22,190 nt of DNA, taken from a virus. This document shows, piece after piece, positions 15,437-21,754 of this stretch; the first letter of the stretch is position 1; every line of letters begins with the position of its first letter. The stretch is taken from IMG/VR virus record IMGVR_UViG_3300042691_030010, positions 1 through 22,190 of that record; one strand, 5' to 3'. A model generated the notes under the pieces. The model ran no database searches. It had not been told where the DNA came from and worked only from the letters and a program-made list of their open reading frames with translations. Both the position numbers and the translations under genes were made by a program.

Positions 15437-15859
15437 TTACAGAGGAAGGCGGCCAGCAGCTTGGAATTCCAAACGCTTGGTCATTTTCTCTTTCAGGCCA
15501 CCGGCCTTTTTGCTCATTTTGAACTGACAATCAAAATAAACGTAGGACTTGGTTTGTCCGTTCGGGTAGTTCTCAGTGAGAAGAACTGTGATTTCTTCTA
15601 CACCAATCCCGTTTAGGTTATTGGTTACAAGCGCGTCGATGAATTCATCAACCGATGCGTCTTTTACTTCCAATTCCATCGAGCCCGACCAGCCTTCGAT
15701 TGCCTGATCGCCTTCGCCGTACTGAGCGCCGACGTAGAAACTGCGTGAAAACGAAGATTCTTGGTTAACATCAACCGAAGAGATATGAACCAGGCCAGTT
15801 TGCGCACCGGCTTTGAAAATCTTGATAACACCCTGATGACCGCGAATTGATGCTGACAT
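15437..15859 (-). CDS. Tail tube protein
   Basis: 140 aa directly after the sheath gene. The beta-rich pattern IRGHQGVIKIF, then SGSMELEVKDASVDEFIDAL and KRLEFQAAGRLPL fits the myophage tube family (gpFII/XkdM-like fold). It stacks as hexamer rings inside the sheath and is the DNA channel. The ATG overlaps the sheath stop (TAATG). The terminator follows the gene. Confidence 0.85.
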   Translation of the reverse strand: MSASIRGHQGVIKIFKAGAQTGLVHISSVDVNQESSFSRSFYVGAQYGEGDQAIEGWSGSMELEVKDASVDEFIDALVTNNLNGIGVEEITVLLTENYPNGQTKSYVYFDCQFKMSKKAGGLKEKMTKRLEFQAAGRLPL

Positions 15860-17307
15860 TATGCTTCTCCTTCAGTGACAACGACCGACTCGCCAATTTC
15901 CGCCTGCAATACGATGAAACGCATCGAGCTGTAAATGCGGCGTTTGTAAAGAACCTTAAAGAAACCCGCAGCAATCGACGCGTCTGTGTTCAACGACTCG
16001 GTGTCGATGAGCTTCGCAAGACCGCTTGCAACTTCGGAATTCTTCGGCAAAATGCCAGAGTTTTCTTGCTCGTTATCCCAGCGAACAATCGCGGCTTTCA
16101 CTTCTGAACGATTTTGCAAAGTGTTCGGCGCGTTCTGATAGTTTTTCAGATACTTCGCAATCGACACGGCAAGATAGTCAGCCATGCGTCGGCGCATAAC
16201 CATGATTTTCGAGCTGTTAGAAATCTGAGTCACAACGCCGGATTTCACTTTAAAGCCGATGTCGGAATCATATTCAAAAGCAGAGATTCCAGCATCTTTA
16301 AGCGCAATGTAGTTAGCGCGTGACAGGTTCAGTTTTAGACCTGTGATGCCGCCAAGATACTGCGAGTTAGAAACATATGCCGGATCGATATGCGGCGCAC
16401 TTTGCGACAATATCGAAGCGTACCAGCTCGCGGGCGATTGATACACGTTAGCGCCACCGATGACAGTTTGCACCCATGGGTAAGCGTATATAATGCGGCC
16501 TTCAGTGTCGCGGTAGTCAGCAACATCAGTGATTGCATTGGCGACAGTGTCGCTCTCTGCGCCAGCAATGATCACCATTTTGTCGGCGGTCGCTGCGGCG
16601 TGGGCTTCGAGGTAGCCGTTTCGTGTGTCGTTGTAAACGTCTAGGAAAAGGAAGTTTCCAGCGCCTTCGACTTCGCATTCTGCAATTGCATCTTCATAGT
16701 CACCATTTACAATTGTACCGTCTGAACCAGTAGCTAGGGCAGTGGCCGCGGCGTTTGTTGGTTCGGCAGCAGTAGAGTTAACAACGGCTGTGATAAGTTT
16801 TGAAGCGGCAAACGTGCTCGATGTGATGTCAGCAATTTCAACATCGTCGTAAACTTCAACCGGCAAAACTGCGGTCGAATTGGTGTCTGCAATTGTATAT
16901 TTTTTTCCAACATTGGTGCCCGTTGCAATGGTAACAGTAATGCCGTTGCCGTATGCGCCTTTGCCTTGTTTCGCAGAAAAAGTAATGCGATCAGTTGTAC
17001 TTGATTGAAAGGCTTTAGTTGCAACTACACCGTCAGCAGCAATTACGCGAGCAATTCGCAGGCGACCGAACTTTTTGTTCTTCAACGCCTTGTTGCCCTC
17101 AAAATCAGGGTCAGCGCCGTAAACTTCATGCAACTCACCGATTGAACCAACTTCAGCCAGCGGAGCAAGTCCGCGCTCAAATTGACCAACCAGAATTGCG
17201 ACGTTTGCCTCGACGCCTGAAATGTTAGGCGCGGGTGCGGTTTCGTTTATGATAATGCCATCGACATCATCAAACTCAGTCGGATTCGTGCTTCGATAAA
17301 TTGCCAT
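15859..17307 (-). CDS. Contractile tail sheath protein
   Basis: 482 aa. N-terminal IIINETAPAPNISGVEANVA and ILVGQFERGLAPL, and the C-terminal ALKDAGISAFEYDSDIGFKV, then VTQISNSSKIMVMRRRMADY, are conserved sheath features; the YLAVSIAKYLKNYQ region forms the inner contact. The middle insertion (about 100-190, Thr/Ala-rich) is the surface-exposed variable domain. Sheath and tube together show the tail is contractile. The start overlaps the upstream tail-terminator stop. Confidence 0.95.
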   Translation of the reverse strand: MAIYRSTNPTEFDDVDGIIINETAPAPNISGVEANVAILVGQFERGLAPLAEVGSIGELHEVYGADPDFEGNKALKNKKFGRLRIARVIAADGVVATKAFQSSTTDRITFSAKQGKGAYGNGITVTIATGTNVGKKYTIADTNSTAVLPVEVYDDVEIADITSSTFAASKLITAVVNSTAAEPTNAAATALATGSDGTIVNGDYEDAIAECEVEGAGNFLFLDVYNDTRNGYLEAHAAATADKMVIIAGAESDTVANAITDVADYRDTEGRIIYAYPWVQTVIGGANVYQSPASWYASILSQSAPHIDPAYVSNSQYLGGITGLKLNLSRANYIALKDAGISAFEYDSDIGFKVKSGVVTQISNSSKIMVMRRRMADYLAVSIAKYLKNYQNAPNTLQNRSEVKAAIVRWDNEQENSGILPKNSEVASGLAKLIDTESLNTDASIAAGFFKVLYKRRIYSSMRFIVLQAEIGESVVVTEGEA

Positions 17308-17891
17308 TAGCTCTCCTCAATATTTGTGGACTGAGCAACGATCTCGACCGTTGTCTCAACAGTTTCAATAATGTTCTCGACCGATTCGCGAATTGCGTGA
17401 CAATGCGAAGTTAGCGACACAATCAAGCGCCACTCTTTACGTTGTGAGCTGATCTCACTGTCCTCGTAGTTCACGCTAACTAAATCAAATCTTGCAATCG
17501 CATCAAAGTAATCGGCCAAAGTTAGCGAAAGACCATGCACGGGAAATCCACCGCTCATCACATTCATGACGTTTGTAAACATCACGTGCCTTTCTTCTTT
17601 CGTCCGGCACCAAAAATCTAGTTGTAACTCACAATCAAATTGCCCGATGACCCATTGCAAACTTGCGAAAATATCCTCTGGGTCACTATCGTCAGTTGCA
17701 CCCTGAACAAAAATATATGGGGTGCATGGGGTGAAGTTTGGCGCACCTTTAAAATCGATGGAAAGTGAAGGGTATTTCAGTTGCACGTTAGCCGCTGGGA
17801 ACCCTTCGACCACTTGCTCAAGTGAGGCGATTTCGCTGTCAAAGTGAGCGCCCAGGCTTTTGATTAAGGCTTTGGTAAAATCATTCGCCAC
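17307..17891 (-). CDS. Tail terminator / tail completion protein
   Basis: 194 aa located just before the sheath gene, where Mu and related phages encode the tail terminator. It has a mixed alpha/beta composition; FDCELQLDFWCRTKEERHV and EWRLIVSLTSHCH are beta strands around the core. The extended acidic C-terminal tail (ENIIETVETTVEIVAQ) is not typical. It probably caps the tube and joins it to the neck. The call rests on position and rough pattern, not on firm family motifs. Confidence 0.6.
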   Translation of the reverse strand: MANDFTKALIKSLGAHFDSEIASLEQVVEGFPAANVQLKYPSLSIDFKGAPNFTPCTPYIFVQGATDDSDPEDIFASLQWVIGQFDCELQLDFWCRTKEERHVMFTNVMNVMSGGFPVHGLSLTLADYFDAIARFDLVSVNYEDSEISSQRKEWRLIVSLTSHCHAIRESVENIIETVETTVEIVAQSTNIEES

Positions 17892-18348
17892 GTTTGAGGT
17901 ACTCCGCTTTGATGTAGTCGATTATTCTTGGAATCATGTTGAGCATAATGTGTTTAGGCATTTGCCCTTGGTCGTGGATCTTTTGTTGCGTGTACTTAGC
18001 CAGCCCCCAAACCGCCGAAGAGTAGTCGGGCGGCTGTGAAGGATCTTGCAGCACGCGCTTGGCCCACTGAAGCAAGGGGCGGATCGGTACCCAAGTCCCA
18101 GCTCTAGTGCCGTATTCGATAAATGCAGCATGTGGGGCCGTGTTGCCTAAGACTGCACCGAATTCCGTTTCGCTAAAATCCCAGCTCGCAGCATAGAGAC
18201 CAGTGTCAACAGGCGAGGCCGCCACAAGATCCGGCACAGAGCGAGCAATGCCCAAAAGCGTCGCTTGCTTCAGCTCCGCAATGTGCTTCTCGCTATATGC
18301 GCCGAGCTCTTTTGCCAGGTCTTGCATGTTGACGACTTTTGACGGCAT
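17881..18348 (-). CDS. HK97 gp10-like neck protein
   Basis: 155 aa. SPVDTGLYAASWDF and APHAAFIEYGTRAGTWVPIR are the family signature of HK97 gp10-like proteins (PVDTG..., A.fiEYGT...). These help join head and tail. It has a 5' helix (LAKELGAYSEKHIAELKQ) and a C-terminal helix. It overlaps the tail-terminator gene by 11 nt and starts after the preceding TAG with no gap. Confidence 0.88.
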   Translation of the reverse strand: MPSKVVNMQDLAKELGAYSEKHIAELKQATLLGIARSVPDLVAASPVDTGLYAASWDFSETEFGAVLGNTAPHAAFIEYGTRAGTWVPIRPLLQWAKRVLQDPSQPPDYSSAVWGLAKYTQQKIHDQGQMPKHIMLNMIPRIIDYIKAEYLKRGE

Positions 18349-18705
18349 CTATACGCCAGTCTTTTGGAGCTTAGACTTGACTTTTTCTCCTGTTATTCTC
18401 TTTGCCACTTGTTTATTTGATTCGCCCTTGCCTTTTTTCATGACCTTGATTGAACCAAGAGCGGCCCCACCAAGAGCGCCAAGTAAAGTCGCTTTTAATG
18501 CCATTTTTGGATTTGGGTTTTTCCATGTCGCCGCAATCCCAGCCAACGCGCCAGCCGCAGCCCCTTTTCCTACGCCAATTTGCTTCGTTTTTGTGATTTC
18601 ACGTTTAGCCCCATAACGCTTTGATGTCCCTTGTGGAGCACTTCCTTTACCTTTCAATGGCACCACGCGCCCATTGACTCTTACGAAACGTACACCTTCA
18701 GCCAT
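18349..18705 (-). CDS. 118-aa GRVVP-tagged Gly/Ala-zipper protein (third of trio)
   Basis: Starts MAEGVRFVRVNGRVVPL, nearly identical to the start of the preceding gene, then a very basic linker, then a Gly/Ala-rich hydrophobic stretch (GKGAAAGALAGIAATW and LLGALGGAALGSI, about 47-90) resembling Gly-zipper membrane segments, then a basic tail (KQVAKRITGEKVKSK). The predicted charge is strongly positive. Start is TAAATG-coupled. The mix of basic ends and Gly-zipper could suit a virion protein that enters membrane or contacts DNA during ejection; this is inference. No family was recognised. Confidence 0.75.
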   Translation of the reverse strand: MAEGVRFVRVNGRVVPLKGKGSAPQGTSKRYGAKREITKTKQIGVGKGAAAGALAGIAATWKNPNPKMALKATLLGALGGAALGSIKVMKKGKGESNKQVAKRITGEKVKSKLQKTGV

Positions 18706-19577
18706 TTATTTATTTCCTTTTTTTGACATTGCGAAGCCAACAATTGCGCCAGAGGCCGCAGCACTTGCCACAGAAAGAGCGGCGATTTTCAATCCGCCCG
18801 CGTACCTGCTCAATTTAATTAGTCGGGAGCTCTTGGCGAGTTTCTGCGTATAGGTGGACCTTAACGGCGGTGGCGGCAGAGTGTGATTTAAATAGGCGTC
18901 TTTCATCGCCTTAATAAACTTTTTATGCCCAGCTCTCTCTATGTCGTTCATAACCAGCATCGACACACCACGAGACTCTAGTTTCTTTTGAGCAACATGA
19001 GCCGCCCCGCCGAGGAGTGTTGCACCAACTGCAACTTTCGCTAGGTTTTTTGCTTTTTCTCGCACTGGCACGACTCGGCCACGGACGCGAATGAAGCGAA
19101 CGCCTTCAGCCATTAGAATGGTACCTCATCATGCTTGTTGCGCAGGGGAACAACGCGCCCGTTGATGTTTCTAAAGGTCACACCGCGATTATCGAAAGTT
19201 TGCTTGGTGAGAACGCGGAAATCGCGATTCGGCGGCACACGTCCGTCTTGCGTTTGGTAGCCACCTTTTAAATCATCAATCGCTTGCTCGGCCAGGTTAT
19301 CGAACTTTTTTGATTGCCGCTGCATGACGGTCTTATAAAAATCATTTTTGTTTCTGAATCCCAATGCGCCGTAAAAGCCTGGGAAAGTGGATTGTGTGCC
19401 GAAGTTTTTTACGACGTTTCCATTTTCATCTTTGCCGACGTTTCTTTTTCCGGCTTCGGCGCTTTGCACCTGTGAGGTCATTTCATCAATACGAGACTCC
19501 ACAAGTGGGGCGGCCTTCATTACCTTTTGCTTATTCACAATTGGGATGACGCGGCCATTGATTCGCACAAAGCGAAT
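18655..19577 (-). repeat. Four copies of a 13-residue RFxRxxGRVVP motif across three genes
   Basis: Copies encoded at 18655-18693, 19063-19101, 19143-19181 and 19539-19577. Consensus [VI]-[RT]-F-x-[RN]-[VI]-x-G-R-V-[VI]-P-[ILV]. Three are N-terminal and one is near the C-terminus of the largest protein. The DNA copies differ at many third positions, so the repeat is seen at the protein level and is not a recent DNA duplication. Confidence 0.8.
18706..19113 (-). CDS. 135-aa GRVVP-tagged protein with two hydrophobic segments (second of trio)
   Basis: Starts MAEGVRFIRVRGRVVPV, then a Lys-rich linker and a first Gly/Ala segment (LAKVAVGATLLGGAAHVAQ, about 24-42). A hydrophilic middle (50-100) contains AGHKKFIKAMKDAYLNHTLP. 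A second hydrophobic segment (GGLKIAALSVASAAASGAIV) precedes the basic end SKKGNK. Bases in the shared start differ from those of the neighbouring gene mostly at synonymous positions, so the protein motif is kept by selection. The start overlaps the previous stop (TAATG). Function unknown. Confidence 0.75.
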   Translation of the reverse strand: MAEGVRFIRVRGRVVPVREKAKNLAKVAVGATLLGGAAHVAQKKLESRGVSMLVMNDIERAGHKKFIKAMKDAYLNHTLPPPPLRSTYTQKLAKSSRLIKLSRYAGGLKIAALSVASAAASGAIVGFAMSKKGNK

Positions 19578-19619
19578 TTGCGGAGCATTGGCGTTGTCTT
19601 TAAAATCACGCGCTGCCAC
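19113..19619 (-). CDS. 168-aa protein with GRVVP tag at both ends (first of trio)
   Basis: GTG start overlapping the upstream stop (TAGTG). It holds the motif twice: IRFVRINGRVIPI at 15-27 and VTFRNINGRVVPL at 147-159, with DNRG before the second copy. The middle is hydrophilic (GYQTQDGRVPPNRDFRVL and NFGTQSTFPGFYGALGF), unlike the two downstream genes, with no Gly-zipper. A protein with the tag at both ends could bridge two binding sites on the virion or chaperone the others. I cannot name a family. It is soluble by inspection. Confidence 0.75.
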   Translation of the reverse strand: MAARDFKDNANAPQIRFVRINGRVIPIVNKQKVMKAAPLVESRIDEMTSQVQSAEAGKRNVGKDENGNVVKNFGTQSTFPGFYGALGFRNKNDFYKTVMQRQSKKFDNLAEQAIDDLKGGYQTQDGRVPPNRDFRVLTKQTFDNRGVTFRNINGRVVPLRNKHDEVPF

Positions 19620-21397
19620 TAATACCTCGTCTGATCTGAAGTCCTACGCAAGTGAATGTTCCAAGTGACGTACCCCTCGGTTACATGAATCACTTGATAT
19701 AGAAACCCGCCGACTTCATAAAACTTTTCGACCAAAAGGTCGTTTGATGAACAATCGACCATCGCTTGAGTTGTGTATCCTTGTTTAGATACCATCTTCA
19801 GCATGATGTCGCCCTGCTGAACGGAGCCGCCTGACTTCAAAACAAAGTCGTGCTCAAATTCGACGATTTGCGGGCTCGGCAGCATTTGCACCAAAGTCTC
19901 GACGGCATTTCCTTCGCCAAGCGAGTCGCCATCCCAAGTGCGCGTCATGATTTTCACGGTTTTCTTGGCCGCGCCAATGTCGTCGCGAACACTCAGCAAA
20001 TTATCAAGATTCGCAATGAGCTGGCCCACGATGCCGTTACCTGTGCCATTGCCCCACGTGCCGGTCTTGTTTACGCTTTCAATCGTGTACTGAATGCCGT
20101 TTCTGACGTTGGTGATTCCTGGATCTGTGGAGACCAAGGTTCCTTCTTTAGCAACGCCAAGAATCTCATACTCAACGCCGTCTTTGACGTTAGCAATTCC
20201 TGGGTCAGTGGAATCAACTTCGAGAGTCCCAACTTTTGTCACGCTCTCGATTTTGTACGAAGTGCCATCGAGCACGTTTGCAATTCCTGGGTCGGTAGAC
20301 TCAAGTGTTCCGGTTTTCGTAGCGTTATCAAAATTTATAGCCAGCTTCACGTTAGCAACCGAGGGGAGATCAAGAGTTCCTGTTTTGGCAATGTTGTTGG
20401 CGGTGTAACCTGTCGCGAGGCGCACGTTTGCCACACCTGGGTCGGTCCATCGATCCGCACCCGTATAAGTGCCAGTTTTAGAAACGCCATCGAAAGTCAC
20501 GCCGGTTTTAACATTGGCTTCGCTAGGAAGATCCAAGGTTCCTGTGCCAGCATCGACGGATGTTCCTAAACGCACGTTTCCTGCTGTCGGAACTGCCAAG
20601 GTTCCGGTCTGTGTGGCTCCTGCGTAAGTGTAGCCAGTAGCCGAGCGCACGTTAGCAATGCCTGGGTCGGTGTAGCTTGTGCCATCAAATGAAGCCACTG
20701 ACCAAAAACCCGTGCGAGCTGCATAGACGTGATTTTCGACGGAATCCCAAAGCAAAAGCTCGTTTAACTGGCAGTTTTGAAAGGCCGTTACGTTGAGCGA
20801 TCCTGAGATGATTTCTCTCATGTAAATTTGTTTGCGATAAGGTGATGCTAGAGCTAACGGGGCTGTCATGGTGTCAATCTCGACGCCATCTTTTGAGACT
20901 TTAACAGCGCCCGCGGTCGTAGTGCCATCCCAAGTAAGCATTAAATCGAAAGGCACATTGGCAGTGGTGCTTAGAGTAGTCGTTCCAACTACAATGCTAA
21001 AGTTTCCAGCGGCATCAGAAACTTGCATGAAGACTTTGCCGCCGTTTGTAGTGCCCACGCGAAAGCCGTAGCCATAACCGCCACGCATGTTGCCAACTTC
21101 GATAATGCCATAGGTGGATGTCCAAGGTGACTCGGTGGCGTTTGGTACGATTCGCGCCAGAACTGAAAATGAAGTAGCGCCATCAACGCACACATTTGCG
21201 CGACCAGGCCAAATCAAGCCTTTGATGACCGAAATTGGGGTCATGTCGAGGCAGTAGCCACCGAAAACGCCAGGGTTTGCGTTTGCAACAACATCGACTG
21301 TTTCATAGCCAAGGTTGGAAAATGGTGAAGAAGTAACGCCGCCAGGGCCATACCATGCATTTAGTTGTGTACCGCGAACGGCAAAGCGCAAGGCCAT
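19619..21397 (-). CDS. 592-aa neck protein: lectin-like domain, repeat arm, head-closure-like C-terminus
   Basis: Residues 1-235 look like a concanavalin/LamG-type beta sandwich (SFSVLARIVPN, FDLMLTWDGTTTAGAVKVSK, QLNELLLWDS). Residues 243-448 hold eight repeats of about 25 residues of the form TDPGIANV..G..Y.......TGTL. Residues about 455-592 (LLSVRDDIGAAKKTVKIMTR, then MLPSPQIVEFE, GDIMLKMVSKQGYT, FYEVGGFLYQVIHV and TWNIHLRR) resemble neck or head-closure proteins of myophages, which are usually single-domain. The gene lies between a connector and neck genes, fitting that role. The lectin and repeats would project from the neck or head and may bind sugars. The C-terminal assignment is moderately sure; the fusion is the odd part. 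Confidence 0.65.
   Translation of the reverse strand: MALRFAVRGTQLNAWYGPGGVTSSPFSNLGYETVDVVANANPGVFGGYCLDMTPISVIKGLIWPGRANVCVDGATSFSVLARIVPNATESPWTSTYGIIEVGNMRGGYGYGFRVGTTNGGKVFMQVSDAAGNFSIVVGTTTLSTTANVPFDLMLTWDGTTTAGAVKVSKDGVEIDTMTAPLALASPYRKQIYMREIISGSLNVTAFQNCQLNELLLWDSVENHVYAARTGFWSVASFDGTSYTDPGIANVRSATGYTYAGATQTGTLAVPTAGNVRLGTSVDAGTGTLDLPSEANVKTGVTFDGVSKTGTYTGADRWTDPGVANVRLATGYTANNIAKTGTLDLPSVANVKLAINFDNATKTGTLESTDPGIANVLDGTSYKIESVTKVGTLEVDSTDPGIANVKDGVEYEILGVAKEGTLVSTDPGITNVRNGIQYTIESVNKTGTWGNGTGNGIVGQLIANLDNLLSVRDDIGAAKKTVKIMTRTWDGDSLGEGNAVETLVQMLPSPQIVEFEHDFVLKSGGSVQQGDIMLKMVSKQGYTTQAMVDCSSNDLLVEKFYEVGGFLYQVIHVTEGYVTWNIHLRRTSDQTRY
20054..20671 (-). repeat. Eight-unit protein repeat array in the neck protein
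   Basis: Encodes residues 243-448. Units begin TDPGIANV, VPTAGNV, LPSEANV, TDPGVANV, LPSVANV, TDPGIANV, TDPGIANV, TDPGITNV and end in GTL, GTY or GTW. The DNA keeps the repeat partly (CCTGGATC, CCTGGGTC), so unit loss or gain by recombination is possible. A long open frame on the plus strand here is due to the repeats. Confidence 0.8.
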
Positions 21398-21754
21398 TTA
21401 AACCACCACGCCGACGTTGATTCCACCCTTTGAAGCGATTGGAATGTCGAGAAGCTCTGAGAGTTCCACGAGCACGCGTTTTCTTTCGCGGCGAAGAATG
21501 TTCATTTCTTCGGGATTCAGTTCGATGTCGCCGACTTTCGTGCTCATCACGCGGCCAAGTGCCTCGTCGAGCTTTACGTCGAGACCAACAACGCGAGTGA
21601 GCAGCGTAATGACATCAGCTTCGATTTCCGCGTTGAGGTTATCCAAGCGTGAAGCAACAACAGAGTTGTAATGCGTCGAAGTCGTTATCAGCAGCTTACC
21701 AGGCCAGCCGAGCAGGCGAACCACATCGTTTTTTTGTGCGGAAGTAAGTGCCAT
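21398..21754 (-). CDS. Head-tail connector protein
   Basis: 118 aa, helical. LTSAQKNDVVRLLGWPGKLL opens the protein, then IEADVITLLTRVVGLDVKLD and LNPEEMNILRRERKRVLVEL, typical of gp6/gp15-type head-tail connectors, which form a ring under the portal. It precedes the neck protein with a TAA-ATG junction and follows a Lys-rich small gene. The call rests on size, helical pattern and order. Confidence 0.65.
   Translation of the reverse strand: MALTSAQKNDVVRLLGWPGKLLITTSTHYNSVVASRLDNLNAEIEADVITLLTRVVGLDVKLDEALGRVMSTKVGDIELNPEEMNILRRERKRVLVELSELLDIPIASKGGINVGVVV

Follow-up and report, generated by a model that had tools for sequence, protein, structure and literature searches.

A 13-residue peptide, approximately [VI]xF-R-R-[IK]-x-G-R-[IV]-[IV]-P-I-[RK], is carried by 228 non-redundant proteins of an uncultured myovirus lineage. 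It probably serves as a modular address tag for the phage head, loading polymorphic effectors that would be delivered by the virion along with membrane or ejection proteins.

Tagged genes of the window

The window, i.e., the whole stretch of DNA analysed, comprises all 22,190 bases of an IMG/VR record. It includes a contractile-tail module with a Neck1-like protein, sheath, tube-position and baseplate genes. Three tagged genes are located between the head-closure gene and the neck gene, which agrees with the neck-region location proposed in the initial sequence-only reading. The relevant features are as follows.

15859..17307, minus strand: tail sheath (phrog_23, E=1.7e-15), indicating a contractile tail
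17881..18348, minus strand: neck gene (HK97-gp10/Neck1-like; PHROG phrog_5, E=4.1e-11; lineage cluster c8), flanking the tag site
18349..18705, minus strand: tagged gene 1, 118 aa; N-terminal tag, Gly-zipper-like segment, basic tail
18652..18690, minus strand: tag copy 1, RFVRVNGRVVPLK (in gene 1 as MAEGVRFVRVNGRVVPLKGK)
18706..19113, minus strand: tagged gene 2, 135 aa; N-terminal tag, hydrophobic Ala/Gly C-terminus, basic end
19060..19098, minus strand: tag copy 2, RFIRVRGRVVPVR (in gene 2 as MAEGVRFIRVRGRVVPVREK)
19113..19619, minus strand: tagged gene 3, 168 aa; tags at both ends
19536..19574, minus strand: tag copy 3, RFVRINGRVIPIV (N-terminal in gene 3, QIRFVRINGRVIPIVNK)
19140..19178, minus strand: tag copy 4, TFRNINGRVVPLR (C-terminal in gene 3, near its end, VTFRNINGRVVPLRNK)
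19619..21397, minus strand: head-closure-position gene, the other flank of the tag site; its C-terminal part of about 140 aa belongs to cluster c6; label derived from gene order, without family match
21398..21754, minus strand: head-tail adaptor-position gene (cluster c10); label from gene order, without family match

The four copies in three adjacent genes, three of them N-terminal and one near a C-terminus, were thus correctly described in the sequence-only reading, as were the Gly/Ala hydrophobic segments and basic tails of two of the three proteins. With regard to the synonymous variation noted there, 43-100% of the residues common to two copies (3/7 to 6/6) are encoded by a different codon, and amino acid changes are present as well. 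As DNA identity among the copies is just 53-69% and the codons differ, their likeness is held at the peptide level.

Neither the three proteins nor the tag itself matched any family above cut-off in Pfam, PHROGs or NCBIfam; gene 1 gave a weak match to the Pfam Gly-zipper (12.7 bits vs. the curated cut-off of 25). phrog_6093 overlaps the tag weakly but was rejected as a tag family, since unrelated control genomes match it too.

Tag consensus and statistics

The consensus built from ungapped copies (124 N-terminal and 22 C-terminal) is [VI]-x-F-[RI]-R-[IVK]-[NRG]-G-R-[IV]-[IV]-P-I-[RK], and C-terminal copies frequently finish three residues further, as P-I-R-x-K. Over all loci, the 228 proteins carry 234 tags: 196 N-terminal, 37 C-terminal and one internal. 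About twenty more degenerate copies, with H for R and Y or W for F, are located in the same arrays. Chance is excluded by two controls: the forward motif has 239 matches and the reversed one none, while 243 matches in 0.88 M residues compare with a mean of 0.04 and a maximum of 3 for 100 column-permuted motifs. The DNA encodings are highly diverse (222 distinct ones among 231 copies), and even the identical peptide FRRIRGRIVPI is encoded in 11 ways in 13 copies.

Tagged loci belong to one myovirus lineage

Since a search for close relatives with gene 3 alone retrieved nothing, sequence patterns were required. With a degenerate DNA pattern of the motif, eight more viral contigs were identified. 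In viral contigs, the pattern F-R-R-I-x-G-R-[IV]-[IV]-P-I matched 46 stretches, as compared with only six in prokaryote genomes totalling 257 Gb. Two of these six are internal in unrelated proteins, two lack a tagged ORF, and one is the counterpart of a 7.2-kb viral hit with the same genes and the same length. The remaining one is a three-tag array in the 45-kb Chitinivibrionales MAG contig JANQEN010000293.1, the sole prokaryote-genome contig (L054) with a real tag array besides the one matching the short viral contig. This contig is a possible lead to the host, or it could be a binning error; no further tag array was found in 168 genomes of its phylum.

Tagged genes are arrayed, with as many as eight per contig. 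The window and all 46 tag-bearing contigs examined carry genes of one syntenic structural module: TerL, portal, tag site A, MuF-like, scaffold, MCP, adaptor, head closure, tag site B, neck, sheath, tube and tape measure. This common module makes the tag a property of a single myovirus lineage which includes the window. The window displays only one of the two tag sites, as the record stops before the major capsid gene. All members of the lineage are metagenomic and their gene calls are ORF-based. Portals are about 50% identical within the lineage, while the nearest cultured portal, that of Komagataeibacter phages phiKX1/2, has 22% identity; the inspected region of these phages contains no tag.

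To avoid circularity, a tag-blind sample of 80 contigs was gathered by an MCP profile. Tags were present in 66 of them. Of the 46 portal-MuF intervals that are complete, 43 contain tagged genes, as do 32 of the 66 complete ones between closure and neck. By place, 122 tagged ORFs are located between portal and MuF (site A), 53 between closure and neck (site B), 10 just before the portal and 2 elsewhere. The MuF-like gene of the lineage is separate and untagged. The motif, therefore, is not confined to the paralogues of the window, a possibility that had been raised against its proposed role: it is found on unrelated proteins throughout the lineage.

Outside the lineage, the tag was unmatched in PDB sequences. 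In INPHARED, no matches were obtained with gene 1, a tagged peptidase, the tag peptides or one of the tagged Gly/Ala-rich family members; jumbo-phage matches of gene 3 were discarded (E of 5 or more, tag absent). The inspected region of Klebsiella phage Miami has no tag either. Neither this tag nor the second peptide described below was found as a string in phage context in open-licence literature, which is weak evidence as subscription papers are mostly outside such a search.

Proposed cargo proteins

After removal of the tags, 142 proteins gave 82 blastp clusters. As blastp may over-split Gly-rich cores, and a sensitive profile search would merge some of the Gly/Ala-rich clusters, it is safe to speak of dozens of families. 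A Gly/Ala-rich family with 23 core members is the most frequent. Tagged proteins range in length from 41 to 347 aa and are strongly basic, with a net charge per residue of +0.153 vs. +0.006 for other ORFs; the tag contributes only a small part of this charge.

Enzyme classes were assigned to a minority of the cargo. ART-PolyVal (PF18760) was found in two N-tagged proteins with 54.6 and 65.0 bits at a cut-off of 31.2, a GNAT domain scored above the Pfam cut-off in two C-tagged proteins, and six tagged proteins have the HExxH zinc-peptidase signature. In L014, ATP-grasp matches (D-Ala ligase and RimK families) are weak but concordant. One pair of proteins, tagged at both ends and at the N-terminus only, respectively, can be called kinase-like by the catalytic-loop motif HxDxxxxN...D alone, as the structure model is poor (pLDDT 40). 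The GNAT cores with a C-terminal tag map to L134:250-726 and L050:4863-5348, and GNAT-like cores with an N-terminal tag to L036:2866-3582 and L047:2145-2882.

A constant tagged N-terminus, MSVKLSRYVFRRIRGRIVPIR, precedes wholly different middles (ART, kinase-like and unknown). Judging from the sequences, this combination of a constant start with a variable middle is the layout of polymorphic effectors. Another observation concerns the constant tagged start MSVKLSRYVFRRI, which is followed by differing middles in L065:8578-9321, L050:3536-4282, L017:3834-4826, L042:6673-7575, L159:94-930 and L028:3168-3821. The C-terminal piece SPTERIEAAKK..RFVKKNGRVVPVRPKK is common to L017 and L028 and is partly present in L087.

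Gly-zipper-like proteins, including the product of window gene 1, are common among the cargo, and 49 of the 228 tagged proteins contain a strongly hydrophobic stretch of 19 residues. The membrane or ejection role suggested for such proteins in the sequence-only reading is putative and based on their composition. The presence of enzymatic cargo (ART, GNAT, peptidase) moves the likely role from an ejection scaffold to delivered effectors together with membrane proteins.

Exchange of the tag

Three portal-MuF intervals lack the tag: those of L130, L137 and L110. The latter has no clear cargo gene, while L130 and L137 have homologous cargo at the same locus that bears a different peptide at the N-terminus, GSRGG[KH]II...G-x-P-[IV]-Y. 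The HExxH peptidase of L130 is homologous to the tagged peptidase of L003 (E=7.6e-18), and further proteins of L130 and L137 have homologues among the tagged Gly/Ala-rich ones (E about 1e-4 to 1e-6). If the tag is an address whose receptor can change, such a swap of labels with cargo and locus retained is to be expected. The receptor should then differ between the two kinds of phages, which is a directly testable idea. Among eight conserved proteins of head and neck, a comparison of divergence in second-peptide and tag-less relatives pointed to none as the receptor.

The second peptide is less basic than the first and was not found in contigs with the first tag. It does occur in other, mostly larger phage contigs at the N-terminus, internally in big proteins or in multiple copies. 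Its carriers include MuF-like proteins, a NUDIX protein and a protein with a weak match to an effector-type M91 peptidase. The sequence GEGSRGGKIIGHTKSGKPIY represents this peptide, which was located in L130:1767-2555, L130:4111-4689 and L137:4270-4974 as well as in L169-L218.

The doubly tagged protein and the predicted tag structure

The gene 3 family has 14 aligned members in the lineage. Both tags are intact in some of them, while others keep one and have the second decayed, so that N- plus C-terminal, N-terminal only and C-terminal only placements occur within one family. The AlphaFold model of the 168-aa protein, based on the 14-sequence alignment, has a pLDDT of 81 and a pTM of 0.72. 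Both tag copies are modelled as two-stranded β-hairpins with the turn at x-G: copy 3 with strands 15-20 and 23-28 (pLDDT of about 90 or more), and copy 4, at lower confidence, with strands 148-152 and 155-159. The conserved tag positions are the turn residue and the strand hydrophobics (F, I/V, P, I).

A chain with two tag sites could well act as a cross-linker. However, the bridge or scaffold role earlier assigned to the doubly tagged protein received no support from the searches performed: no match to a known function was obtained, and its fold has no clear match (best E of 1.1 in PDB, best Z of 3.2 in VIA). In BFVD, the best match of the model (m567905a16072) was A0A5K7NKK3 (E 0.037, probability 0.98, TM 0.38), and covers a part of this 1000-residue viral protein.

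Proposed mechanism and alternatives

We propose that the tag is a small β-hairpin, with F-R-R-I and R-I-V-P-I as strands and the turn at x-G, which a variable repertoire of accessory proteins carries at the N-terminus, the C-terminus or occasionally both. During head assembly, it would be bound by a conserved component of the head or neck; by position, the MuF-like protein, portal, scaffold and head closure are candidate receptors. Tagged proteins would thus be built into the virion, most likely in the head beside the DNA in view of the strong positive charge of the cargo. At infection, the cargo would exit together with the genome. Modifying enzymes, among them ADP-ribosyltransferases, acetyltransferases and peptidases, would then target host proteins, and the Gly-zipper proteins would function at the membrane. 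The original proposal of a docking or packaging tag for diverse cargo fits all the data, namely unrelated basic proteins, fixed loci and the swap. The sequence data establish that the tag is modular and prefers protein ends, and they establish its loci, its exchange, its presence throughout the lineage and the classes of tagged proteins; binding, packaging, injection and the activities are inferred.

The hairpin may instead have a purely structural role, anchoring decoration or ejection-channel proteins to the portal, neck or MuF-like protein, with no effectors acting on the host. The fixed location at portal and neck, the many Gly-zipper-like proteins and the Gly/Ala-rich commonest family are in line with this, yet we regard it as unlikely: ADP-ribosyltransferase, GNAT, HExxH and ATP-grasp-like cargo would not be expected of channel parts, and polymorphic middles follow one constant N-terminus. 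Even less probable is a sorting function within the infected cell, with the tag taking proteins to a membrane or protein complex where assembly occurs, without incorporation into the virion. Gene position as such implies only late co-expression with head genes, and a peptide shared beside these genes could serve assembly without delivery. However, the positive charge is as expected for proteins packed with DNA, and the portal/MuF position is where known delivered proteins are encoded (PMC5512222).

An AT-hook-like element that binds nucleic acid rather than protein could be imagined for an Arg-rich peptide with an x-G-R core, but we consider it very improbable. The AT-hook core R-G-R-P is absent from the tag, which has x-G-R-[IV]-[IV]-P; conservation of the turn and strand hydrophobics goes with the predicted hairpin, the replacement tag on homologous cargo is less basic, and the restriction to two loci would be left unexplained. 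Finally, recent functionless duplication of one N-terminus among paralogues is hardly credible: genes 1 and 2 do have MAEGVRF in common and 72% identity over 65 bases, but C-terminal copies, unrelated cores, the 222 distinct encodings and lineage-wide persistence contradict it.

Comparison with known systems

Head delivery by an address tag would not be without parallel. To our knowledge, known head-targeting signals are few, and the textbook one is the CTS of T4.

T4 internal proteins are packed in the head and injected, counter host defences and have a short conserved leader (CTS) as their sole common feature, which packs foreign proteins too (PMC3012670; PMC12373910); one packaged T4 protein, Alt, is an ART (PMC5512222). 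The likeness lies in a short targeting peptide common to otherwise unrelated proteins. The sequence of the tag is unlike that of the CTS, its predicted fold is a β-hairpin, and the phages belong to another lineage with enzymes and Gly-zipper proteins as cargo. Moreover, the CTS is an N-terminal leader only, while here 37 tags are C-terminal and some proteins have both. Differences in sequence, predicted fold and C-terminal use place the tag outside the CTS family, and the best explanation by analogy is that it would work like the CTS though unrelated to it. No head maturation protease was found among the ten representative head and tail genes scanned, and these thus give no support for tag cleavage as in T4.

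MuF polymorphic toxins and polyvalent proteins carry variable enzymatic domains, ART among others, are linked to phage head genes and are thought to be injected (PMC5512222). The ART-PolyVal domains of two tagged proteins resemble this system. The carrier there, however, is a whole MuF or portal domain or one giant protein, while here the proteins are small and separate, each with a 13-residue tag. The Dar proteins of P1 form a set of internal proteins that are incorporated in order and co-injected with DNA; anchoring is attributed to DarA and Hdf domains, and these proteins are not known to share a short tag (PMC12810830).

If the address-tag reading is correct, the lineage provides a second, unrelated and end-independent head tag, present in almost all members of a large lineage of uncultured phages. 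It would account for many orphan genes near portal and neck, allow injected effectors to be found by sequence, and serve as a short tag with which chosen proteins could be loaded into phage heads. More tentatively, and with slightly more doubt than conviction, we suggest that tailed phages have at least two general interchangeable hairpin labels, FRRIxGRIVPI and GSRGGKIIGxTKSGKPIY, which could make any protein a virion cargo. Whole arsenals of injected host-modifying enzymes would then be recognisable from sequence alone.

Other features of the window

The head-closure-position gene (19619-21397) has an N-terminal fusion of about 450 aa with repeats of DPGxANVxxGxxY...GTL, while the homologous protein in relatives is about 140 aa long. 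The fusion is perhaps a neck appendage or fibre. The gene at 1655-2164 is on the plus strand, opposite to the rest, and by eye looks like a Cro/cI-type helix-turn-helix gene; that at 2-670, also judged by eye, is Bet/RecT-like. Together, these two putative assignments hint at a temperate phage.
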